Below, piece by piece: positions 9,682 to 64,000 of a DNA stretch of 64,000 nucleotides. Position numbers and translations under genes: made by a program. The notes beneath the pieces are model-generated. The model did not search any database. It was not told where the DNA came from and worked only from the letters and a program-made list of their open reading frames with translations. The stretch is from Watersipora subatra. Taxonomy: Eukaryota > Bryozoa > Gymnolaemata > Cheilostomatida > Watersiporidae. Every line of letters starts with the position of its first letter. Position 1 is the first letter of the stretch. The stretch lies in NCBI RefSeq assembly GCF_963576615.1, contig NC_088715.1:56392190-56456189 (forward strand), in the 5' to 3' direction.

Positions 9682-9872
9682 CCTTCAGTTTACTGGGGTT
9701 GCATGTATATTTAGGACCTACTTTTTGACCATGTTGGCGTCCTATTCTTATACATGTATGTGTAGTCCATGTGTCTTTCAAAGGAAAGCGTGAAGGCAGC
9801 TGCCATGTTTCCTTTATTGCTCCACAAGAATTAAAACCACTGAGTGCAAAGCATTAAGATATATATATATAT
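9682..9872. repeat. Left arm of inverted repeat flanking the R4-like element
   Basis: About 180 bp reading CCTTCAGTTTACTGGGG at its outer end and running to AAGCATTAAGATAT at its inner end, where a (TA)n run begins. It is matched in reverse complement at 13228-13400 with few differences, one being a ~14-bp extra stretch near the inner edge here. The pair brackets the non-LTR element, the tRNA-like head and the hammerhead palindrome. Confidence 0.75.
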
Positions 9873-9892
9873 AAATATATATATATATAAAA
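9859..9892. repeat. (TA)n microsatellite at the 3' side of the R4-like element
   Basis: TATATA run directly next to the 3' end of the minus-strand retrotransposon. A matching TA run sits past its 5' end (12854-12924). Confidence 0.85.
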
Positions 9893-9951
9893 TTGTTTCC
9901 TCATCCCAGATACCCCGTATGGGTGGTAAATTCTGCTCTAACTCGGGTCTC

Positions 9952-10755
9952 CTACCAGAGACCTGGGAGTTTGAGCACTCGCCTCAAGATCTTAGCTGTT
10001 CCCATTAGCGCACTTTTCTGCAACTCACCTGAGTTGATTGTTGTTGGTATTTGGGCAAGCCACATTTTATGCGCCGGTGTTATTACGCCCAGTGCCCCAA
10101 TGACTACTGGGATTACAGTTGTTCTTACATTCCAGCATTTTTCAATTTCTTCTCCAAGAGGGAGATATTTCTCTACCTTTGCTTTTTCTTTGCTGGCTAT
10201 ACTGTAGTCATTGGGTACTGCTATATCTATTATATTAGCCCTCTTGTTCTCCTTGTCTACCACCACTATATCTGGTTGGTTTGCCAGAACATGCTTGTCA
10301 GTTTAGATGTAGAAGTCCCAGAGGATCTTAGCGCGGTCATTTTCATTGACCTTACCAGGAGCTTCCCACCAGTGTTGTGGTTTATTAAGGCCATACTCAT
10401 CACATAGACTTCTATACACAATACCTGCGACATGATTATGCCGCTCAGTTTATGCGTTCCCTGCTATCTGCCTGCATCCACTGATAATGTGTTGGATGGT
10501 CTCAGGTGCATCTTTGCACAGTCTGCATCTAGAATCGTCTCTAGTGTGATAGATTTTCGTTTGAAGTTGCCTTGTTGGGAGCACTTGCTCCTGGGCTGCC
10601 ATGATTAGCGACTCTGTATTGGCCGTTAGGTTTCCTTTGTTCAGCCACATATATGTCTGGTGAAAATCGCCAACCTTAGATATTTGTTGGTGGTAAGCAC
10701 CATGAAGAGGTTTCGTGTGCCAGTCAATTTCCTCATCATCAGGGCGTAGGTCCAT
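9952..10755 (-). pseudogene. CCHC motif and restriction-like endonuclease of the R4-like element
   Basis: The first part carries CRLCKDAPETIQHIISGC, a Cys-X2-Cys-X8-His-X4-Cys knuckle in the position where R2/R4 elements have their CCHC motif. After a stop, the frame continues with RHNHVAGIVYRSLCDEYGL, then QPDIVVVD and IIDIAVPND followed by a Lys-rich YLPLGEEI segment. The PD...D...K arrangement fits the PD-(D/E)XK-type nuclease that makes the first-strand nick. One in-frame TAA lies between the knuckle and the nuclease, just before TDKHVLANQPD. Confidence 0.8.
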
Positions 10756-10770
10756 TGTAAAAGCAGCCGA

Positions 10771-11955
10771 TTAAAATTCAGCTAGCAACTTATCTGAGAT
10801 GGCCATAGAGGCTGCATATGCTTTGATGCTTTGCTCCTCTTCTTTCACTGTCTGCTGTACACTTTTGAGTCCCATACCGCCATCTTTCCTATCAAGATAC
10901 AATTTAGTAGTATCAGATTTTGGGTGGAGTGCTCCATGCATAGTCAGCAGTTTACGAGTTGCTATATCTGTTTCTTTGATGGCTTCCTCAGTCCACTTTA
11001 TTATGCCTGCTGGATATCTTATTACTAGCAGTGCGTAGGTATTTATTGCCATGATTTGGTTCTTGGCATTGAGCTGGCTCCGTAAGACCTGCTGAAGGCG
11101 TTTCTTGTATTCGGTAATGGCTTTGTGACGTACCTCGGCTTCGTGGTTGATATTGCTTTGCATAATCCACAAGTACTTGTACCCTTCTTCTATATCTTTG
11201 ATGGTACCATTTGGCATTCTTAGGCCATCTGTGAGCATAGAATGGCCTTTTTTAAAAATTAGCCTTCCACATTTCTCAATACCGAAGGTCATTCCGATGT
11301 TCTTGCCGTATACCTGAGTGAGGTGTATTAGCGAATCAATGTCCCTTTCTTTGTTAGCGTACAGCTTGATGTCATCCATGTAAAAGAGGTGGTTTATCTT
11401 GGTGCCACTCTTAAACTGGTACCCATGTTGAGTCTCCTCCAGCATATTGCTTAGAGGGTTTAGGCATATGCAGAAGAGCAGCGGTGATAAGGAGTCACCT
11501 TGATAGATGCCTCGCTTAATTTGTACACTCGCCAGCTTTTTGCCATTAGCCTCCAGTTCCGTCTTCCATTTGGTCATTGACATCTTGATGAATGCCACAA
11601 GAGCAGGGTGAACATTGTACATACTGAGGCACTCAAGTATCCAACTATGGGGAATTGAGTCATAGGCCTTTTTGTAGTCAATCCAAGCCATGGCAAGACT
11701 GGTTTGCCTTCTCCTGCTGTCATGAAAGATCGTCCGATCCACCAGTAACTGATGTTTAGCTCCTCGGGTATTGCGCCCAATTCCTTTCTGAGCACTGGAC
11801 ATATAGTGACTCATGTGCTCTTCCAGTTTGTCTGCAACTATTCCTGAGAGCAGTTTCCAAGTGGTGGGCAAGCACGTTATTGGTCGATAGTTTTGGAAAT
11901 CAGCCCCTGATTTGGATCTTTTATCAGAAGTACAGTTCGTCCTTTGGTCAGCCAT
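10771..11955 (-). pseudogene. Reverse transcriptase domain of the R4-like element
   Basis: The longest open frame of the element, 394 residues. It reads through NYRPITCLPTTWKLLSG (fingers), WIDYKKAYDSIPHSWI (first catalytic Asp), YQGDSLSPLLFCICLNPL and the FYMDDIKLYA catalytic box. A thumb region follows with GIEKCGRLIFKKG. It copies the element's RNA at the nicked target. The frame is intact internally but cut from the N-terminal part by a frameshift and from the endonuclease part by another at about 10760. Confidence 0.9.
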
Positions 11956-12749
11956 TCTGGATGGTCACCTTGTTCTATTAGGCATTCCATCTGCTTAGCC
12001 ATTCTAGTGTGAAGTGATGTCAATTTCTTTAACCAGAAGGCTTGAATCATGTCATGGCTAAGTGCTGCCCAGTTCTTCATACGCTGCACTCTGCACTTGA
12101 TGTCCTCTTTGCTGATGGTGAGTCCTTGCTGAGCCACAGTGTGTTGATGGTTCTCTTTAAGCCAGCCAATTTGCAGTGGTGTCATGAGTAGTCTCTTTCT
12201 CCCAGATGTCCTTCCAGAACTTTGAAGTGCTAGATCGGAGAGGCTCAGACATTAGCCTCTGCAGTTCACCTTTGAACTGGGAATACACTCTAGATAGATT
12301 ATTGATGAACAGTTTGTTCATTCTCTTGTTATTCCGCTCTTTGGTGTACCGCTTCAGTCGTGCCGAGAGTGCTACTAGCTGCTGTTTGGCAGATTCTAGA
12401 GCTTCTATTGTGGCTTCCCTTTTTTACACTCCAAACTGTGGTTAGATCACTCACTGAGCCTACTAACTTTCTTGCGCACGTCTTTGATCTTATTTTGTAG
12501 CCTCAGCTGCCAGAATGGAATGGCTTGAAGCCTTGTTGGCATTGGCTTAATATCCATCTCCTCCAAGATGATGGTTGCTGTACTGTAGATTAAGGCATTA
12601 GTCTCACTGATTGATCCAGTTGAGATCGACTCCAGTGCCACGTTGATGTCTTCTAACAGCTTCTTAGGTATGGCCTTGCTAACTCTTCGTAGTGGTACCC
12701 TGCTTCCATAATCTTGTCTGTCCATATCATAGTCTTGTCCAAGGACCAC
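11877..12749 (-). pseudogene. N-terminal part of the R4-like polyprotein
   Basis: Three frames must be followed to read this part. 12749-12447 ends in NKIKDVRKKVSRLSE. The next frame carries KQQLVALSARLKRYTKERNN and SSTSKFWKDIWEKE. Then 12185-11877 carries DIKCRVQRMKNWAALSHDMI and HPEWLTKGRTVLLIKD. The last phrase is the usual lead-in to the reverse transcriptase in this family. No N-terminal zinc finger or Myb-like DNA-binding motif is seen, so the extreme 5' end may be missing. Confidence 0.75.
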
Positions 12750-12758
12750 CAGAAAGGT

Positions 12759-12830
12759 GCAGTTGTTGGGGTTTGAACCGAGGACCTAATGATCACGATC
12801 CCGATACCTTACCAACTGCGCTATCTGTCC
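12759..12830 (-). mobile_element. tRNA-derived SINE-like head
   Basis: Read on the minus strand, it has an A box in TAGCGCAGTTGGTAAGG and a B box in GGTTCAAACCCC with tRNA-like spacing. The acceptor ends do not pair, so it is not a working tRNA gene. It lies just upstream of the R4-like element's first frame and starts at GGACAG, which is itself duplicated in inverted orientation next door. Confidence 0.55.
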
Positions 12831-12924: not shown

Positions 12925-12959
12925 ATATTTGAAAAATTATTGCGAAAAAAGTAAACTTT

Positions 12960-13018
12960 TAGTATTTGCGTTACAAATTTGTTTCGTGCGAAGCATTCCT
13001 CAGACACAATTGTACTGA
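12960..13018 (-). ncRNA. Degenerate hammerhead motif (left arm, minus strand)
   Basis: Mirror copy of the right-arm motif. It keeps CTGAGGA (13003-12997), GAAA, the ACAAATTTGT stem III and the GTA site. The base pair closing stem II next to the core is changed from G-C to an A-C mismatch, and the outer stem I block has lost one pair. Activity is likely reduced or lost. Confidence 0.6.
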
Positions 13019-13023
13019 AGTTT

Positions 13024-13081
13024 TAGTACAATTGTGTCTGAGGAGTGCTTCGCACGAAACAAATTTGTAACGCAAATACTA
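13024..13081 (+). ncRNA. Type I hammerhead ribozyme motif (right arm)
   Basis: All core elements are present on the plus strand. Core CTGAGGA is at 13038-13044 (CUGANGA consensus). Stem II GTGC/GCAC (13045-13048 with 13052-13055) has a TTC loop. GAAA is at 13056-13059. Stem III is the self-complementary ACAAATTTGT (13059-13068). The predicted cleavage site is after A13069 in a GTA triplet. Stem I has two blocks, TGTGT/ACGCA and TAGTA/TACTA, split by an internal loop (CAAT/AA). Type I motifs with an internal loop in stem I are known from Penelope-like elements and animal retrozymes. Cleavage itself is not shown by sequence. Confidence 0.75.
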
Positions 13082-13192
13082 AAAGTTTACTTTTTTCGCA
13101 ATAATTTTTCAAATATTTCATACTCCACTAATAATCTTTTGGGTTTTTAGTGTAGAGTTCTCTTTTTATATGCTTTTGCACTTGCTTTTAGT

Positions 13193-13236
13193 TAATATAT
13201 ATATATATATATATATTATGTATATATATATATAAT
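13193..13236. repeat. (TA)n microsatellite
   Basis: TA run with one TATG interruption. It ends where the right inverted arm begins. Confidence 0.85.
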
Positions 13237-13400
13237 ATCGTAATGCTTTGATTCTTGTGGAGCAATAAAGGAAACATGGCAGCTGCCTTCACGCTTTCCT
13301 TTGAAAGACACATGGACTACACATACATGTATAAGAATAAGATGCCAACATGGTCAAAAAGTAGGTCCTAAATATACATGCAACCCCAGTAAACTGAAGG
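13228..13400. repeat. Right arm of inverted repeat flanking the R4-like element
   Basis: Reverse complement of 9682-9872. The inner end ATATCGTAATGCTTTG meets a TA run. The outer end is CCCCAGTAAACTGAAGG, which is then repeated in tandem. The arms share CTTGTGGAGCAATAAAGG and TACATGTATAAGAATA. The arrangement looks like the terminal repeats of a larger or foldback element. Confidence 0.75.
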
Positions 13401-13461
13401 GTTCCCCAGTAAACTGAAGGGTTCCCCAGTAAACTGAAGGGTTCCCCAGTAAACTGAAGGA
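13384..13461. repeat. 20-bp tandem repeat, four copies
   Basis: The unit CCCCAGTAAACTGAAGGGTT is present about four times, the last diverging into AACTGAAATATATA. It is an amplification of the outermost 20 bp of the inverted arm. The left arm at 9682 has a single copy. Confidence 0.9.
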
Positions 13462-13466
13462 ACTGA

Positions 13467-13484
13467 AATATATATATGTATATA

Positions 13485-13570
<86 letters not shown>
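13467..13570. repeat. (TA)n microsatellite, ~100 bp
   Basis: Nearly pure TA run with two TATG interruptions, ending exactly where the retrozyme-like repeat starts. Confidence 0.95.
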
Positions 13571-13571
<1 letters not shown>

Positions 13572-13575
13572 TCAT

Positions 13576-13621
13576 GCTACAGACAGTACTGTTTCGGCTA
13601 TTGAAGCCTCATCTGTGCAGC
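13576..13621 (-). ncRNA. Hammerhead copy with one core substitution
   Basis: Identical to the motif at 13836-13881 except that the core reads CAGATGA instead of CTGATGA (plus-strand base 13614 is T). The affected base, U4 of the core, is invariant in active hammerheads, so this copy is expected to be inactive or very slow. Confidence 0.8.
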
Positions 13622-13835
13622 TCAGAGCTTAGGCAAGGGACACAAATCCCATTACCAATGAGAGTTGACTTCCTGCCATGAAACAACTAAGTTGCTTCAC
13701 AGACTTTAAGAAAGTCAATGTGCTGGCACCAGAGTGCTCAAATCACAAAAGTGATGAGCTTTGCACAAAGGCTAGTAGTGCCGCACCTCTCACAGAGCGC
13801 TCAACCAAACCGAAGTGAGGGAGCATAATACTCAT

Positions 13836-13881
13836 GCTACAGACAGTACTGTTTCGGCTATTGAAGCCTCATCAGTGCAGC
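13836..13881 (-). ncRNA. Type I hammerhead ribozyme, consensus core
   Basis: Read on the minus strand. Stem I is TGTAGC paired with GCTGCA (six pairs including one G-U). Core CTGATGA is at 13875-13869. Stem II is GGCT/AGCC with a TCAAT loop. GAAA follows. Stem III ACAG/CTGT has a TA loop, and the site triplet is GTC, with cleavage between 13842 and 13841. Every invariant core position matches the hammerhead consensus, and GTC is the classic site. Confidence 0.85.
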
Positions 13882-14024
13882 TCAGAGCTTAGGCAAGGGA
13901 CACAAATCCCATTACCAATGAGAGTTGACTTCCTGCCACGAAACAACTAAGTTGCTTCACAGACTTTAAGAAAGTCAATGTGCTGGCACCAGAGTGCTCA
14001 AATCACAAAAGTGATAAGCTTTGC

Positions 14025-14281
14025 ACCAAGTGGTAGAGCTGACTTAGGATTTGTTTCCTCTTTCTATTAACGAGCACACAACTCTTATAGCAGATGGTCA
14101 TTGGAATACTTTGCGCTTGAAAATAAACTTATGATCCGTGTTTTGGGTAAGCAACAATACACTTAGTAATTACTAATTACTAATAGTACATTAGTACATT
14201 ACTAATAGTACATAATACTAATTACTAATAGTTAGTACATTATACAAAAATATAGTTAATACAATTGCCTGAGTAAAATTT
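14025..14281. repeat. Inverted repeat A, left copy
   Basis: About 257 bp from ACCAAGTGGTAGAGCTGACT to GAGTAAAATT. It is matched in reverse complement at 17110-17365 with small indels in a TACTAATAG-rich section. Its outer end is joined directly to the truncated retrozyme unit. Confidence 0.85.
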
Positions 14282-14689
14282 AATGTCAGAAAACTATAGT
14301 TAACACAAAAATAAAAAATAACATAAATTTAACAATAAAAAAAAAACTATTATTGTTTGCCTTTTGGTCATGGTCTTTCTTCCTAAATTGGCATACATGA
14401 CCGGCATAGTCTTTTGTTAGTTTTATTTGTATTCGGGCAAGTTTTTACTGTGGTTTTACCTGACAGGGAGTGTATATAAGGATTCCGAATTTTATAGAGC
14501 GCAGTTGTGTTTCTACTTTTGTACAATGAATACACATATTTTAGTCACAATAATTAACCTTAGTTTGTTACCCCAATTACCCACAGGTCACCCAGACACC
14601 ACTCAGTATTTGTTTCAAGGACACAGAACTGGACTTACGTTAGCTTAGCAAGGTCATTGCTAGGACGTCATATCTGGACTCAGTAGTTA

Positions 14690-17100: not shown

Positions 17101-17109
17101 TATAATTTT

Positions 17110-17365
17110 AATTTTACTCAGGCAATTGTATTAACTATATTTTTGTATAATGTACTAACTATTAGTAATTAGTATTATGTACTATTAGTAATGTACTAAT
17201 GTACTATTAGTAATTAGTAATTACTAACTGTATTGTTGCTTACCCAAAACATGGATCATAAGTTTATTTTCAAGCGCAAAGTATTCCAATGACCATCTGC
17301 TATAAGAGTTGTGTGCTCGTTAATAGAAAGAGGAAACAAATCCTAAGTCAGCTCTACCACTTGGT
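17110..17365. repeat. Inverted repeat A, right copy
   Basis: Reverse complement of 14025-14281. It runs from AATTTTACTCAGGC to CTACCACTTGGT. Together the two copies bracket about 2.8 kb with no transposase gene. A TA run lies directly at its inner edge. Confidence 0.85.
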
Positions 17366-20803: not shown

Positions 20804-21583
20804 GGCAGTTAACTGGTTGCTGCATAAATTATACTTGATATCTGAACATTTTGTTTCCAAATGATAACTAATGAGTCATAATTATACTTCTGAGTAATTG
20901 TCAGCAGATCTAGCAATTTTCAATCATTAAATATGTGCTTTGGATACCAACCATAAACACTTTTTAAATAATTTAAATAAGACTTACTATGGCTCTAGCT
21001 AATCTTTTTAAACATGAGACATTTATGTGTTTTAAGAACTAACAAATTTGTTTTTAATAATTTTATTAAAACTTCACTTATTATCCAGTGATTATATTTC
21101 CATCTTTTATTTTTTTATTGAGCATTTTTCAAAAAATCTCTGCATTGATGAATGCAGGTAAACACATGCAATCATTATGGAAATCACAAAACAACTATGA
21201 AATTTTGAAAAATTTGGCTAATGGTTATACTATTCACCTTGTAGTTCCAAAACTCAGCATTTGTTTATGAGACGCTGCGTTTAATCTCAATTTAATAAAA
21301 TTTTGTTGTTGAAAATATTGTTTGTTATTGGGATGAAAATTTCATATTCATCTTTAACGATTAGGTCATAGTTGCTTATTCAGTAGGCGGATTACTAGAA
21401 ATAGCTGTAGTGGGTTGATTTATGTTATGTAATAATTGAATAGGCATTACACACATCAGACCAGGTCGAATGCGTGTTGATTGAATTTATACAAACTGAG
21501 CGCAGACAGTGAGCTAGTACACTACTTGCCACTGCTTGCTGAAATTAACAAGAGGCTACCGAGTCAGCTTTACCTGCTCAACA
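20804..21583. other. Upstream flank of the fucosyltransferase
   Basis: AT-rich non-coding DNA. I see no well-placed TATA box or other core promoter element that I would defend. Confidence 0.4.
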
Positions 21584-22780
21584 ATGAACCACTCATCAAA
21601 GGTTTTCAGTGTTATTAGTCTTGCTGTTATACTTTGTATCATCACTATTGTGTACAGACGTGAAAGTGACAAGGGGTTCTTTCAAGCAAGATATCAGTTT
21701 ATGGACAAATTACATTTATCTAGGAATCAAGATCGCTATGCCGAGGGTGAGCATTCTAAAGAGTTGGTTATAAACCAATCTGCAAATATGGCAAATATTG
21801 AGGTGAGGAAAGTTATACTGAGTATAGATAAAGGAGGGCCATGGCTGCTTCCAAGGATCCACTTTGATGGATGTGAATATTCAAATTGTGATCTCATCTA
21901 CAGTCCAGATAACATCAGTTATGCTCAACAAGCCGATGCTCTTATATTCGTTCCAAACACTACGCAGAGTTTGTTACAGTTTCCAAGAGCTGTTCGTCAA
22001 CGACAATTGTGGTTTGTAGCAAGCATGGAGCCACCAGCTTACCCTTGGCATAAATTCAACAGAGTTGTCAACAACTTTAATGGAAGCATGACCTACTTAC
22101 GCAACTCCACGCCTGCACAGTTACTTTACGGACACACAAGAAAAGAGCGTGCATCTACTCAGCAACAACCAACTATTAACTATTCGAAGAATAAAAATAA
22201 AGGGGCGTATGCATACGTCTCTCACTGCAAAACAAGACAGTATGACAGACTGCCCTTTATGGAGCAGCTAAAGAAGTACATAAATGTAGACATATTTGGT
22301 GGCTGCACCAAACAAATACCTTGTCCAAAAAGAGGTAACAAAACATGTGTGGCTGACACACACTATCCTTACAGATTCTACTTAGCATTTGAGAATTCTT
22401 TATGTACAGAGTATATAACTGAGAAATTCTAGAAAACCTTGAAGAGTAAAGGAAATATTGTTCCTGTTGCTCTCGGAGGTTTATCAGTGCAAGAATATAC
22501 TGACATTGCTCCTCCAGATTCTTTTATCCACGTCTACAATTTCTCATCAGTAGAGGCTTTAGGAAAATATCTCCAGCACCTGATGACAGATGAAGCTGCC
22601 TATAACAGGTACCACGAGTGGCGTCAGCATTACTCAGTTTCGTTAAATATAGGACAAGCTTGTGGCCTTTGCAAAAGCATCAATCACCCTGAGTTGCTGC
22701 TCGTGGAGCAAAATAGGCAATTTGCTGATGAAAGGAATATGGAAAAAAACTGCAAGAACCTGACCATACCTGCCAGTTAA
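21584..22780 (+). pseudogene. Alpha-1,3-fucosyltransferase (GT10) with one internal amber codon
   Basis: Single-exon frame of 398 codons from an ATG at 21584 (context AACAATGA). It encodes a Golgi type II membrane enzyme that would move fucose from GDP-fucose to N-acetylglucosamine of glycans. Residues 1-7 are a short cytosolic tail and about 8-23 a signal anchor (FSVISLAVILCIITIVY). A stem follows, then the catalytic domain with FVASMEPPAYPWH, FNGSMTYLRNSTPAQ, AYVSHCKTRQYDR and VDIFGGC. The GT10 signature FYLAFENSLCTEYITEKF is at about residues 265-282. Many N-glycosylation sequons are present. Codon 283 is TAG where GT10 enzymes usually have an aromatic residue, and the frame stays open for 115 more codons (GNIVPVALGG, PPDSFIHVYNF, CGLCKSINH). 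No other disablement is seen, so this is a very young pseudogene, a polymorphic null, a base error, or a recoded gene. Length is normal for the family. Confidence 0.9.
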
Positions 22781-23675: not shown

Positions 23676-24690
23676 CTATCTATATATATAAATCTCAAGT
23701 TTGTGTATCATCTGTAAATCAGTGTGTACAGCTCTATGTCTATGTACAGCTCTATGTCTATGTACAGCTCTATGTCTATGTACAGCTCTATGTCTATGTA
23801 CAGCTCTATGTCTATGTACAGCTCTATGTCTATGTACAGCTCTATGTCTATGTACAGCTCTATGTCTATGTACAGCTTTATGTCTATGTACAGCTCTATG
23901 TCTATGTACAGCTCTATGTCTATGTACAGCTCTATGTCTATGTACAGCTCTATGTCTATGTACAGCTCTATGTCTATGTACAGCTCTATGTCTATGTACA
24001 GCTCTATGTCTATGTACAGCTCTATGTCTATGTACAGCTCTATGTCTATGTACAGCTCTATGTCTATGTACAGCTCTATGTCTATGTACAGCTCTATGTC
24101 TATGTACAGCTCTATGTCTATGTACAGCTCTATGTCTATGTACAGCTCTATGTCTATGTACAGCTTTATGTCTATGTACAGCTCTATGTCTATGTACAGC
24201 TCTATGTCTATGTACAGCTCTATGTCTATGTACAGCTCTATGTCTATGTACAGCTCTATGTCTATGTACAGCTCTATGTCTATGTACAGCTCTATGTCTA
24301 TGTACAGCTCTATGTCTATGTACAGCTCTATGTCTATGTACAGCTCTATGTCTATGTACAGCTCTATGTCTATGTACAGCTCTATGTCTATGTACAGCTT
24401 TATGTCTATGTACAGCTCTATGTCTATGTACAGCTCTATGTCTATGTACAGCTCTATGTCTATGTACAGCTCTATGTCTATGTACAGCTCTATGTCTATG
24501 TACAGCTCTATGTCTATGTACAGCTCTATGTCTATGTACAGCTCTATGTCTATGTACAGCTCTATGTCTATGTACAGCTCTAGCTATTAAAGTGTTGAAA
24601 TGAAAAGCTCGCACCGTGCTGGATTTAAACTCACGAAGATCGCAACCACATGCTTGTGATTCAATCATCTAACTACAAGTTTACGAAGAC
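23676..24690 (-). mobile_element. tRNA-headed element with a VNTR body
   Basis: On the minus strand, a tRNA-like head (about 24680-24608, B box GAGTTTAAATCC) leads into CTTTTCATTTCAACAC and TTTAATAGCTA. An 18-bp satellite follows, then a tail ending ATTTATATATATAGATAGAT. The same order (tRNA-like head, TTTTAATAGCTA, repeat, TA-rich tail) is seen at 38430-38610. It could be a tRNA SINE with an expanded VNTR or part of a Helentron/HINE element. The CTAGT-type end at 25690-25732 fits the second view. Confidence 0.5.
23728..24582. repeat. 18-bp satellite, about 47 copies
   Basis: The unit TGTACAGCTCTATGTCTA is repeated without length change. The only substitution is C to T at 23878, 24166 and 24400, giving spacings of 16 and 13 units. 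Because 18 is a multiple of 3, three plus-strand frames and one minus-strand frame stay open as repeat peptides. None has gene context and I treat them as artefacts. Confidence 0.95.
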
Positions 24691-29680: not shown

Positions 29681-31736
29681 ATACTATATTTAAATATGAA
29701 AGGATAAATTCACACAAATATTAAGGCTATAACCCTGCTATAACCCTATGGTCTTACAGAACTTTTAAACAATCAATAGTCACTTATTAGATTATTGAAA
29801 TAGTTTGTGAATAATTCAAATACTTCTAGCTATAATGCAATTAATAATATTACATTACTTATTAAAAAGTTGCAGTGATTACTTGCTATTGTCCTAACAT
29901 TGAATATCATCAAGGTGACAGTAAGAGAAACTTCTGGTGAGAGCTTCAATGAGTTTGACTGGCGTGAGCAAAAATCTTCTGACCAAAGCAGTTCTCATAT
30001 CGCCGATGACTGTATAATAGTATGCTGCAGAGTCTCGTGGTCTAATGATCTTACCATCAAAAAGGAAACAGGTGAAAACATATCCTGTATTTAAGGAGCT
30101 TAAAGATACTGTCATAAAGTGTTAGCTTTTAAAATGTGGTGTATTATAAGTTATTAAATGGATACTGTTTGCTGACTTTAGAACACTTTAGACATTACAC
30201 TTTTAGATTTTAGAGACCCGTAGAAGGCTTTCAAGGTTTTGCTAAAGCAAAAGTAAATATTGAGCACGGGAAAGTGCTGTTCTATTCAATAAATTTTCCA
30301 GTCTATGGTACAATTGCCATTTATTCTGTTATTATCTGTATATGAGGATATCTTTTTGGAGACACCTTTTTTAATGATGAACATAAGCCCCACCTGCAAT
30401 TTAATAAAAGGCCATCAAAGGTACCACAAAAACCGACGCATAGTAGTCAACTCGGTAGAAATGTTGAAACTGAGATGTTTTTTGGTTTCCAGATCACGGT
30501 TCATAGCCTTGATCAAACAAAGCCTTTGGGCTGTGTCTGTTTATCTTTCAAACTGATCGCACAACTCTGAAGTTTGCAATGATTGTTACAATTGCTCTTA
30601 AAGCGTTTTGTCAAACTTAAGGCTTTTATCGAGCTTAACAAAATCACCCTGAAATCACCTATTGTTATGCAACAGCAAATCGAGATGTTAATTTTAGTTA
30701 ATTTGTAAAAATACAATTATTATTTCAAATTGTATTAAAAGTTTATATTTGCCACTTCATTTAATTTTACCTATGACAGAACAATATAACAGCCTAATAA
30801 GTTTAAAGATGCAGCCTGTTTACTTTTGCTAAGTCTATGATCTAGAAATGTAATTAAATATTAGAAATAGACTGAGTCAAGATAATGCTAGATTGAATAA
30901 TTAATTTAAAAACTAACCAAACGCAAGAAAGTCTTAGATTTTAACTAAAAATTATGGTACTTAGAGTTTTTTTTATCCTTCATTGTCTGTTTTTGTTTGA
31001 AAAATGAAATCGTTAAATAACTTTAATGATTGTATGAAACTTTACAGAGTTGAGAGAAGCTATCAACTTGATAAGTAGCCTTACAGTGTTAAGTAGTGAT
31101 TTCGTTTTGTTCATGCTCAAACTTATGACTTAGAGGAAGCAGCATTTTGCTTAAAGTAAAAGCCTGTTTGTTTACTAGACTTAGTGTGACAGTTTGTATC
31201 AGTTGTTGTTGATCTAAAAAAAAAATAAATTGAACTTTGATCATAATACACATGCACATAATTATGATTACATACATGACATACAAAAATCCTTAGCTTT
31301 TAGATGGTGACACATTTTTTTTACTGCACTGCATGCTTTGCTTAATTAGTGTAATTCTGAAAACTAATTAGTGTAAACTCTGAAAATTAAATGTTAGAAG
31401 TTATTAAAAGCAATAAACTAAAGTCTTATTGTCATCCTTATAATAAAAAAATGGATGAGTAGTTTGGGCGATACAGGAAATGAATGGTGTGTAGGTAAGA
31501 GCAGCAATTGCAGAGAAATGGGGCTGGTATAACTTAGACTACTATACCTAGACTTTAAATCAACATAACTTACCATATTATTGTACTTTTATGGTCGGTT
31601 TTTATGTTGGACTAATAACCGTTCATTTCATCATTTCCAAACTCAAACATTTATGTGTTCATTGTACATTTATATCTCTGTTAGTTTTTTTCTACAATTT
31701 ACCTGTCAATGCTTGTGTAGACATCTGCCGGCTGGC

Positions 31737-32900
31737 AGTTTTAAAGTCATCTAGGGGTGGACAGCTTTATATACATTTAGTAGTAGACAGCTTTATATAC
31801 ATTTAGTAGTAGACAGCTTTATATACATCTAGTGGTAAACAGCTTTATAGACGTCTAGTAGTAGACAGCTTTATAGATATTTAGTGGTAGACAGCTCTAT
31901 AGACGTCTAGTAGTAGACAGCTTTATAGACATCTAGTAGTAGACAGCTTTATAGACATCTAGTAGTAGACAGCTTTATAGACATCTAGTAGTAGACAGTG
32001 TTATAGGCATCTAGTAGTAGACAGCTTTATAGACATCTAGTAGTAGACAGCTTTATAGACATCTAGCAGTGGACAGCTTTACAGACATCTAGTAGTAGAC
32101 AGTTTCATAAACATGTAGTAGTAGGCAGCTTTATAAGCACCTAGTAGTAGACAGCTTTATATACATCTAGTGGTAGACAGCTTTATAGACGTCTAGTAGT
32201 AGACAGCTTTATAGATATTTAGTGGTAGACAGCTCTATAGACGTCTAGTAGTAGACAGCTTTATAGATATCTAGTAGTAGACAGCTTTATAGACATCTAG
32301 TAGTAGACAGCTTTATAGACATCTAGTAGTAGACAGTGTTATAGGCATCTAGTAGTAGACAGCTTTATAGACATCTAGCAGTGGACAGCTTTACAGACAT
32401 CTAGTAGTAGACAGTTTCATAAACATGTAGTCGTAGGCAGCTTTATAAGCACCTAGTAGTAGACAGCTTTATAAATATCTAGTAGAAGACAGCTTCATAG
32501 GCATCTAGTAGTAGACAGCTTTATAGACATTTAGTGGTAGACAGTGTAATACAGATCTACTGGGAGGCAGTTTCACGGACATTTACTGGTAGACAATTTT
32601 GTAGACAATGTCGTGTTGTTAGTTTTATCGATATCTACTGGTGAACAACTTTAAAGACAACATCCGATAAACAGTTTTATAAACACTTAACAAAATATAT
32701 TTTTATTGAGATCTACTCATAGTCTGTTTTATAGACCTCTACTAGTAAGCAGATTTATAGAAAACTACCAGTAGTAAACTATAGGTGCATAGATAATTTT
32801 ATAGGCATCTAGTAGTAGGCAGTTTATTATAAATTTATTGGTAGACAGTTTTATGAACAATTACTGGTAGACAGTCTTAGATTTTTTAAGTAGTTGGTAT
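31737..32900. repeat. 26-bp minisatellite with a 338-bp higher-order unit
   Basis: The 26-bp unit contains TAGTAGTAGACAGCTTTATA followed by GACATC. About 32 recognisable copies run to 32560 and degenerate copies trail to 32900. A block starting at 31815 recurs at 32153, 338 bp later, with the same series of variant units (for example GATATTTAGTGGTAGACAGC). 338 is exactly 13 units, so a 13-unit block has been duplicated. Confidence 0.85.
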
Positions 32901-48412: not shown

Positions 48413-48963
48413 CTGTAGGAAAATTTTATTAGTTTAGCATTCCTGGAGTTGAGGCCAAGTCAAATTGGCCTAATACGTGATGACCAATGATAGTTGCCGG
48501 CGTTAAGTCATAAGCTAAGGTTTTGCTCAACTCATAGCGTGACGTTTTCTAACTTCTTTAGAAGGCAGCCAGATTTGAATAATTGCTCTTAATTATTAAA
48601 TTGTCAATTACTAAAAGATTATTTATTAGAGATTACAGGTTAGTTGCATATGCTATTGTATTTTATTATACCATGTTATGTTGTTTCTTGTCACTTTTCA
48701 TTTGATGTTCAGTACGTTTACTTGCTATCATACTGTAACTTTTCATACTTTATTGCATTCATAATTATTGTGCTTTGCAAGTTGGTATAGAAATGGTACT
48801 GAAATATTATTTCAGGTTTCACGGTAAAATTAAAGATTGTGAACCGCACACTTAACCAGTGAAATCGTCTCTTTTAAAATCCTGAGTGAATTCAAAACCT
48901 AAAGTTTCCAAAAAACTCTACAGTGAAACCTTCCTCTAATCAACTGTGAGGACAATTGATAAT
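48413..48963. other. Probable intron sequence
   Basis: AT-rich DNA upstream of the splice acceptor at 48413, ending at the 61-bp tandem array. Confidence 0.35.
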
Positions 48964-49390
48964 CCAGTCAGCCACAGTGTAGACAACACAAGAGCTGTTC
49001 CGTACCAATAAAAAAGATAACTCCAGTCAGCCACAGTGTAGACAACAAAAGAGCTGTTCCAGACCAATAAAGAAAAAATAACTCCATTCAGCCACAGTGT
49101 AGGCAACACAAGAGCTGTTCTGGACCTATAAAGACAAAATAAATCTAGTCAACCACAGTGTAGACAACACAAGAGCTGTTCCGGACCAATAAAGAAAAGA
49201 TAACTCCAGTCAGCCACAGTGTAGGCAACATAAGAGCTGTTCTGGACCTATAAAGACAAGAAAAATCCAGTCAGCCACACTGTAGGCAACACAAGAGCTG
49301 TTCCGAATTTATAAAGAGAAGATAACTCCAGTCAGCCACAGTGTATACAACACAAGAGCTGTTCTCGAACTACAAGAAAAGATAACTCCA
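48964..49390. repeat. 59-61-bp tandem repeat, seven copies
   Basis: Each unit begins CCAGTCAGCCACAGTGTAG and includes CAACACAAGAGCTGTTC and CAATAAAGA or TATAAAGA. Starts are at 48964, 49023, 49084, 49145, 49206, 49267 and 49328. It ends about 225 bp before the BEL/Pao gag frame and may be part of that element's 5' untranslated region. Confidence 0.9.
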
Positions 49391-63584: not shown

Positions 63585-64000
63585 GCCCCCTTGATGCAAT
63601 GAGCTGTCATCCGATACGCCTGATATACTATTATCACCTGCCCCTTGATGCAATGAGCTGTCATCCGATACGCCTGATATACTATTATCACCTGCCCTTG
63701 ATGCAATGAGCTGTCATCCGATACGCCTGATATACTATTATCACCTGCCCTTGATGCAATGAGCTGTCATCCGATACGCCTGATATACTATTATCACCTG
63801 CCCCTTGATGCAATGAGCTTTCATCCGATACGCCTGATATACTATTATCACCTGCCCTTGATGCAATGAGCTGTCATCCGATACGCCTGATATACTATTA
63901 TCACCTGCCCCCTTGATGCAATGAGCTGTCATCCGATACGCCTGATATACTATTATCACCTGCCCCCTTGATGCAATGAGCTGTCATCCGATACGCCTGA
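63585..64000. repeat. 53-55-bp satellite, eight copies, running off the window
   Basis: Units begin TTGATGCAATGAGCTGTCAT and continue CCGATACGCCTGATATACTA TTATCACCTG. Starts are at 63591, 63645, 63698, 63751, 63805, 63858, 63913 and 63968. Length differences come only from a run of three to five C at the unit junction. One unit has a G to T change (GAGCTTTCAT). The minus-strand open frame across it is a repeat artefact. Confidence 0.95.

Follow-up and report, generated by a model that had tools for sequence, protein, structure and literature searches.

Non-LTR retrozymes of animals have been described from Acropora millepora and Mytilus galloprovincialis as non-coding repeats of ~170-400 nt with a type I hammerhead ribozyme (HHR) and less than 50% GC, arranged as dimers to multimers, with a stable predicted circle and with HHR-bearing Penelope-like elements (PLEs) resident in the same genomes (PMC7229834). 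Circular templates were proposed for them, and PLEs were named as strong candidate helpers (Cervera and de la Pena 2020, PMC7229834); the mobiliser and the circular template have the standing of a proposal in that paper. The HHR repeats of newts and axolotls are also short, high-copy tandem repeats, but they have units of 330-350 nt and a very short stem III and act mainly as dimers (PMC7229834). The HHR-flanked RNA circles of the plant LTR retrozymes likewise come from tandem repeats, while these elements differ in having type III HHRs, a length of 600-1000 nt, LTRs, and 4-bp target duplications; Gypsy is their likely helper (PMC7229834, PMC7761336). For PLEs, an anatomy of pLTRs and tail has been described (PMC3846280; PMC11167929), the tail being on one of two inverted pLTRs (PMC3846280).

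The window, i.e., the whole stretch of 64,000 nucleotides that was analysed, contains a tandem array whose HHR type, unit size, GC content, and predicted structure agree with those of the metazoan non-LTR retrozymes (PMC7229834). Judging from its sequence, the element is a member of a dispersed non-LTR retrozyme family. It is very probable that it is a non-LTR retrozyme spreading through RNA templates, the choice of helper being a separate question. Its sequence is different from those of the coral and mussel retrozymes; it also differs from them in the 840 matches to one (TA)n junction and in arrays with one-template variant patterns. This genome would add a precise start site, a target sequence, and single-template patterns, as read from DNA, and no mention of retrozyme insertion into (TA)n or of start sites in arrays was found in the titles and abstracts of the open-licence literature. 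This genome lets the helper question be tested, with 840 junctions, near-identical arrays, and a young PLE and a LINE sharing the target. The array has the following parts.

13571..14025, minus strand: retrozyme array, 1.75 units of 260 nt; truncated RNA 5′ end at ~14025, 3′ end at 13571
13582..13841, minus strand: full unit of 260 nt between consecutive cut sites; 46.5% GC
13831..13887, minus strand: intact type I HHR, C3 at 13875; cleavage predicted between 13842 and 13841
13571..13627, minus strand: HHR of the 3′ end, C3 at 13615, A in place of core U4; cleavage predicted between 13582 and 13581
13468..13570, no strand: (TA)n tract that adjoins the 3′ end of the retrozyme; 840 genome matches to the junction pattern with at most one mismatch

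The units are 98% identical across 203 nt, and the predicted GUC cut sites are exactly 260 nt apart. Thus, the first-pass annotation had rightly read two units spaced by 260 bp with type I HHRs on the minus strand, the one complete in its core, GUC, three stems, and six-pair stem I, and the other deviating at core U4 alone. In the HHR with C3 at 13875, all core positions (CUGAUGA, GAAA, and GUC) are present. Its stem I consists of six pairs and, beyond an internal loop, of an outer CUC/GAG helix (the outer part was identified by eye), stem II is GGCU/AGCC, and stem III lies inside the palindrome CAGUACUG. The common HHR of the family reads CUC-UGA-GCUGCA-CUGAUGA-GGCU-UCAAU-AGCC-GAAA-CAGUACUG-UC^UGUAGC-AU-GAG in RNA sense (^ marks the predicted cut, after GUC), with a two-part stem I around the internal loop, a four-pair stem II, and a stem III that lies within the palindrome. 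Where C3 is at 13615, the HHR deviates from the core at a single position, with A at U4. Changes of U4 in the HHR core strongly lower cleavage. Thus, cleavage is probably abolished at the 3′ site of the window copy, and the release of a 260-nt monomer in cis, which had been expected of it, is unlikely. The tandem repeat does begin at 13571 as annotated, but its other end lies at ~14025 and not at 14030. No stop-to-stop ORF of 100 aa was found within the array. RNA folding predicted an unusually stable circle for the majority retrozyme unit (z -3.6), and 322 nt of the window copy gave a z of -4.5. The 5′ flank at 14025-14283 recurs as an inverted 259-bp copy at 17107-17365 with 98.8% identity, and the array has its 5′ end right at the edge of this repeat. 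An empty target site, in which this flank copy would continue into the sequence on the other side of the array, was not found within the window.

I searched the 784-Mb assembly (239 contigs), in which no match to COX1 was found, for the family. A 40-mer of the HHR gave 950 forward and 926 reverse matches (1876 together) with at most two mismatches, and the backwards control gave 0. The 3′ junction pattern with (TA)n gave 408 and 432 matches (840 together) with at most one mismatch, and its control also gave 0; the retrozyme insertions are fewer than 840, since some of the matching places are segmental duplicates. On contig C1 (79 Mb), 61 exact HHRs form 40 clusters (gaps of at most 600 bp), 26 of them single, 11 double, two triple, and one of seven. 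The counts of HHRs and junctions and the mostly single clusters of C1 thus indicate a dispersed mobile family. A one-off local duplication, which had been considered for the unit, is ruled out by the 1876 matches, and the assignment to the retrozymes holds, with a type I HHR in short, non-coding, and dispersed tandem repeats of 259/260 nt. Among 102 full units, 50 are 260 nt and 52 are 259 nt in length. Exact retrozyme termini number 29 on C1 and 70 on contig C2 (77 Mb), and 47 of the 70 are located beyond 41 Mb.

The 3′ ends and the 5′ ends behave differently. A first set of 45 arrays or fragments came from the comparison of the window copy with 39 loci that rank high in matching window positions 13560-14040; it favours TA ends because the query carried 11 nt of TA. 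In this TA-biased set, TGTAGCATGAGTA is followed by at least 95% A+T over 20 nt in 43 of 45 cases, the exceptions being an old copy with 83% identity (L019+) and a fragment of 31 nt (L037). In a less biased set of ten loci from the HHR-only list, picked as close opposite-strand groups or singles, the exact 3′ end occurs in 8 of 14 cases, and the other six stop ~1-4 nt earlier, also at TA. The 5′ starts in the first set, in contrast, are scattered over the unit. Even pieces shorter than a unit end exactly at the family 3′ site (L116, L118, and L119) or one nucleotide short of it (L113 and L114). The 3′ end of the arrays is thus one internal site, between GAGUA and UUAU, 13 nt past the HHR cut. 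Since an internal unit continues past this site with GAGTATTATGC or GAGTATATGC, the start falls at a UAU stretch able to pair with (TA)n. Moreover, a junction 13 nt past the cut spans a ligated or uncut bond, which excludes a cut linear monomer as the template. Two arrays begin exactly at the cut site (L015+ and one of L110), which fits a linear RNA too. The 5′ ends are not enriched at the 3′ arms of predicted hairpins (22% of 49 positions against a background of 36%, with the duplicates L021, L027, L034, L035, and L048 omitted). Target-site duplications are indistinguishable from the repeat because the junctions sit in (TA)n. Neither the 45 arrays of the first set nor the ten HHR-only loci include directly joined head-to-head twins of the retrozyme; at L044, L110, and L111, TA or other sequence lies between the opposed retrozymes, and the inverted piece at L041 is a mere 14-nt stub.

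Do the units of an array derive from a single template? Full units (n = 102) differ on average at 1.7 positions within loci and at 6.6 between loci, where L015 pools two opposite arrays. The contrast is 0.65 within against 5.16 between loci for the 259 subfamily and is weaker for the 260 subfamily (2.34 against 4.13). Identical pairs of units make up 47 of 110 pairs within loci, compared with 50 of 5041 between loci. In a permutation test on 140 fragments of 41 arrays, which included partial units and left out six subfamily-diagnostic columns, 44 of 146 variable array columns have a variant carried by every fragment of its array; 500 permutations within subfamilies gave a mean of 3.9 and a maximum of 14. 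When the segmental duplicates L021, L027, L034, L035, and L048 are removed, 37 of 116 columns remain, compared with a mean of 2.8 and a maximum of 12. The clearest array is L043, whose six full units have six common differences from the 259 majority and no private one, although two of the six fall at subfamily columns. Private variants common to the units of an array fit the pattern predicted for repeated passage round one circle, as far as DNA sequences can tell, and gene conversion or unequal crossing over could be partly behind the sharing within arrays.

It had been noted at first that no helper element was visible here. The window has two candidates, a LINE at 9890-12785 and a PLE fragment at 12925-13195. 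The parts of the latter are listed below.

13021..13084, plus strand: PLE type I hammerhead; predicted GUA cut between 13069 and 13070; stem II GUGC/GCAC
12925..13019, minus strand: inverted PLE arm, ending in (TA)n at site A; the same HHR, but with its stem II mismatched (A-C) at the basal pair
13022..13195, plus strand: PLE arm with 79-nt tail; ends at site B in (TA)n, which runs from 13196 onward

Positions 12925-13116 form an inverted repeat of 95-nt arms with 98% complementarity, and each arm has an HHR unlike the retrozyme HHR. The plus-strand HHR has, by eye, an outer stem I of UUUUAGUA/UACUAAAA. Head-to-head pLTR-like arms, a tail on one arm, an HHR, and TA-rich flanks liken 12925-13195 to the described HHR-bearing PLEs (PMC11167929, PMC3846280). 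On the strength of this pLTR-and-tail anatomy it would be an inverted piece of a young PLE, while profiles alone give no proof. A 26-mer of the PLE HHR has 179 and 165 genome matches (344 together) with at most one mismatch, and the control has 0. At L040 and L049, the PLE arms adjoin a coding end (L049 peptide, TYIGLC...RSYLLGYT). In a genome search with the L049 peptide, in which the best 150 of 4089 candidates were scored, 11 of the 150 have an open frame of at least 700 aa; in one of the 11, the match contains a stop. Copies in direct tandem, spaced by 2459-2461 bp, exist at three places, one of which was read (L065), and many neighbours are head to head. The order in L065 is ORF, HHR, site A (CAAA followed by TA), and, 82 nt further, site B (AGTTAA followed by TA), and both sites are element ends in use at other PLE copies. 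The 709-aa frame of L065 as a whole had no relevant match in Pfam and none in PDB; a 247-aa piece matched RVT_1 with an E of 0.018, below the cut-off, the 145-aa end had no GIY-YIG match, and NCBIfam gave the Drt2 reverse transcriptase with an E of 0.0055, far below the cut-off. By eye, the frame has YRDD and GIY/YIG-like letters, which may correspond to the motifs of a reverse transcriptase and a GIY-YIG endonuclease.

Both ends could be read at 28 head-to-head PLE loci, and all 28 pair an arm that ends at A with one that ends at B (extra ends at L011 and L080 were set aside, and the duplicates L009, L053, and L063 were counted once). Nine of ten longer pairs could be resolved, eight as A/B and one as B/B (L100/L101), while L102/L103 is unreadable on one side. 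Overall, 36 of 37 resolved pairs are A/B, although they are not all independent events because short palindromes may partly copy one another. These ends suggest that the two PLE strands started at different RNA sites. At all 73 PLE ends read (L062/L063, one place, was counted twice), the next 24 nt have at least 79% A+T. The PLE copies thus have an HHR near the pLTR and an AT-rich target. The retrozyme differs from PLEs in that it has no ORF, no tail, and, in the sets examined, no joined head-to-head arrays; the lack of such twins speaks against the retrozyme simply following the PLE route.

The HHR anatomy, the copy number, the recurrent 3′ junction, the variable 5′ ends, and the common private variants are seen in the sequences. 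From them I infer a cycle whose cleavage, ligation, circular template, and helper are all proposed steps. Multimeric transcripts of the strand reading from 14025 to 13571 would fold HHRs and be cut at GUC into monomers of 259/260 nt, which a host ligase would circularise. A reverse transcriptase acting in trans would then start on the circle at the internal site between GAGUA and UUAU, using nicked (TA)n DNA as a primer through UAU microhomology to the retrozyme RNA. The enzyme would circle a variable number of times and drop off, leaving arrays of copies of one template, constant at the 3′ end and variable at the 5′ end, and the 5′ end of the array would be joined within or beside (TA)n. The circular RNA would thus be reverse transcribed by a rolling-circle, target-primed route. 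The full version, in which a Penelope-like enzyme capable of internal initiation nicks (TA)n, starts at a fixed HHR-adjacent site in the circular RNA, and copies several rounds of it, is tentative and clearly short of an even chance. If true, it names the enzyme that spreads metazoan retrozymes and explains why the HHR lies beside the start site in both the retrozyme and the PLE.

Is the hammerhead real? A descriptor that demands a six-pair stem I, a four-pair stem II, stem III, and all core bases matches the 64-kb window at exactly two sites, namely the retrozyme HHR with C3 at 13875 and the plus-strand site at 13038, which the first-pass annotation had not listed, and has no match in 200 dinucleotide-preserving shuffles. 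The covariance-model check that the first-pass annotation had called for gave nothing above threshold for the window HHR, and this speaks for a chance look-alike without catalytic function. On the window, Rfam had no match at the gathering level, and the single row of the HHR clan was Hammerhead_HH9, which scored 21.2 bits where 52 are required (E of 0.019 in a 1-kb search and 1.2 for the whole window). In the genome, RF00163 had one weak match among the best 73 of 61516 candidates that were scored, and a 34-base HHR pattern had no exact match in IMG/VR. However, 121 of 142 ribozyme ends of the fetched arrays are letter-identical over the compared parts, another 11 fit a loose core pattern (the U4 change of the window and one further U4 change are among them), and ten fail it; CAGATGA, with U4 changed to A, is one of the 142. 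Since many copies are young and resemble each other anyway, this likeness is not by itself proof of selection. Two element families with unlike stem letters have the identical fold in one genome, and more weight is given to the genome-wide picture than to the missing Rfam match; a look-alike is extremely improbable. A real HHR could still be a passenger of satellite-like DNA, in which dispersed seeds grow by local unequal crossing over and are homogenised by gene conversion. The likeness of units within arrays and the tail-to-tail and other complex clusters (L015, L111, and L112) would suit it. However, the 840 dispersed matches to a single 3′ junction are a retrotransposition signature, 26 of the 40 C1 clusters have a single exact HHR, and sub-unit pieces keep the same or nearly the same 3′ end with variable 5′ truncation. 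Moreover, arrays with at least two full units never mix subfamilies beyond single-base length changes (L031 and L036), when L015 is taken as two separate arrays. Satellite growth is thus very unlikely, and RNA-templated spread is preferred. Whether its templates are circles or linear multimeric transcripts of existing arrays is a closer matter. The two arrays that begin exactly at the cut point agree with linear RNA, and unprocessed RNA was the dominant substrate of an Anolis PLE in vitro, where HHR mutants were still inserted (PMC11167929); therefore, that Anolis enzyme does not need a circle. The junction 13 nt past the cut argues against cut linear monomers but not against uncut multimers. 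Daughters of mixed parents would be expected to repeat the order of variant units, and by eye none such was seen in arrays with unlike flanks, which is a weak test. Linear templates are unlikely, though less so than a satellite, and the circle remains the preferred template.

The LINE of the window is as follows.

9890..12785, minus strand: LINE copy with a broken reading frame; RVT_1; zf-RVT at 27.3 bits, just under the cut-off of 27.5
9859-9889, strand -: (TA)n tail of the LINE, at the 3′ end of this copy

A tRNA-like stretch (GCGCAGTTGGTAAGG...GGTTCAAACCCC, by eye) lies on its 5′ side at ~12760-12830, and ARAGORN found no tRNA gene anywhere in the window. The LINE family is young, and its 3′ ends run into (TA)n. 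It is possible, though a little less credible than a PLE helper, that this (TA)n-tailed family and not the PLE mobilises the retrozyme. Copies are numerous in the genome (the best 104 of 7194 candidates were scored, and the longest open frame has 1171 aa), and in the fetched flanks (at most 1.5 kb) of 40 retrozyme loci, LINE pieces occur at 15 and PLE pieces at three, although these counts may reflect the greater abundance of the LINE. LINE reverse transcription usually begins at the 3′ end of the RNA. A circular RNA offers no 3′ end to start from, and the window LINE copy has no match to the HHR descriptor. On C1 and C2, three of 30 PLE loci have a retrozyme terminus within 3 kb, compared with 0.14 expected (4 of 3000 shifts reach this), as does one of the 14 best-scored LINE copies, compared with 0.06 expected (161 of 3000 shifts); the latter figure says little against the LINE because the scored list is a small part of the family. 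The TA-rich sequence past all PLE ends read and the presence of an HHR beside the end sites of the PLE itself speak for a PLE helper, and internal initiation has been reported for a PLE in vitro (PMC11167929). The co-location of PLE and retrozyme can be explained by the common (TA)n niche alone. On balance, the co-resident HHR-bearing PLE is the favoured helper at not quite an even chance, narrowly ahead of the LINE, and it is rather improbable that the helper is neither of the two.

Does the start site of the retrozyme resemble the two PLE start sites? All 259/260 positions of the circle were ranked for this with five window sizes in two subfamilies. The true site ranked 5th to 175th and was never the best, which speaks against a PLE helper, and the comparison was rejected as support; the best positions of some windows lie 2 to 9 nt off the true site and were not counted either.

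Other tandem arrays of the window are at 13384-13460 (20 bp, 100% regular), 23725-24582 (18 bp, 99% regular), 31736-32544 (26 bp), 48958-49390 (61 bp), and 63587-64000 (units of about 53 bp). A fucosyltransferase (GT10) frame of 304 codons lies at 21518-22780 on the plus strand; after one stop, 115 open codons follow in the same frame, which by eye resemble its continuation.
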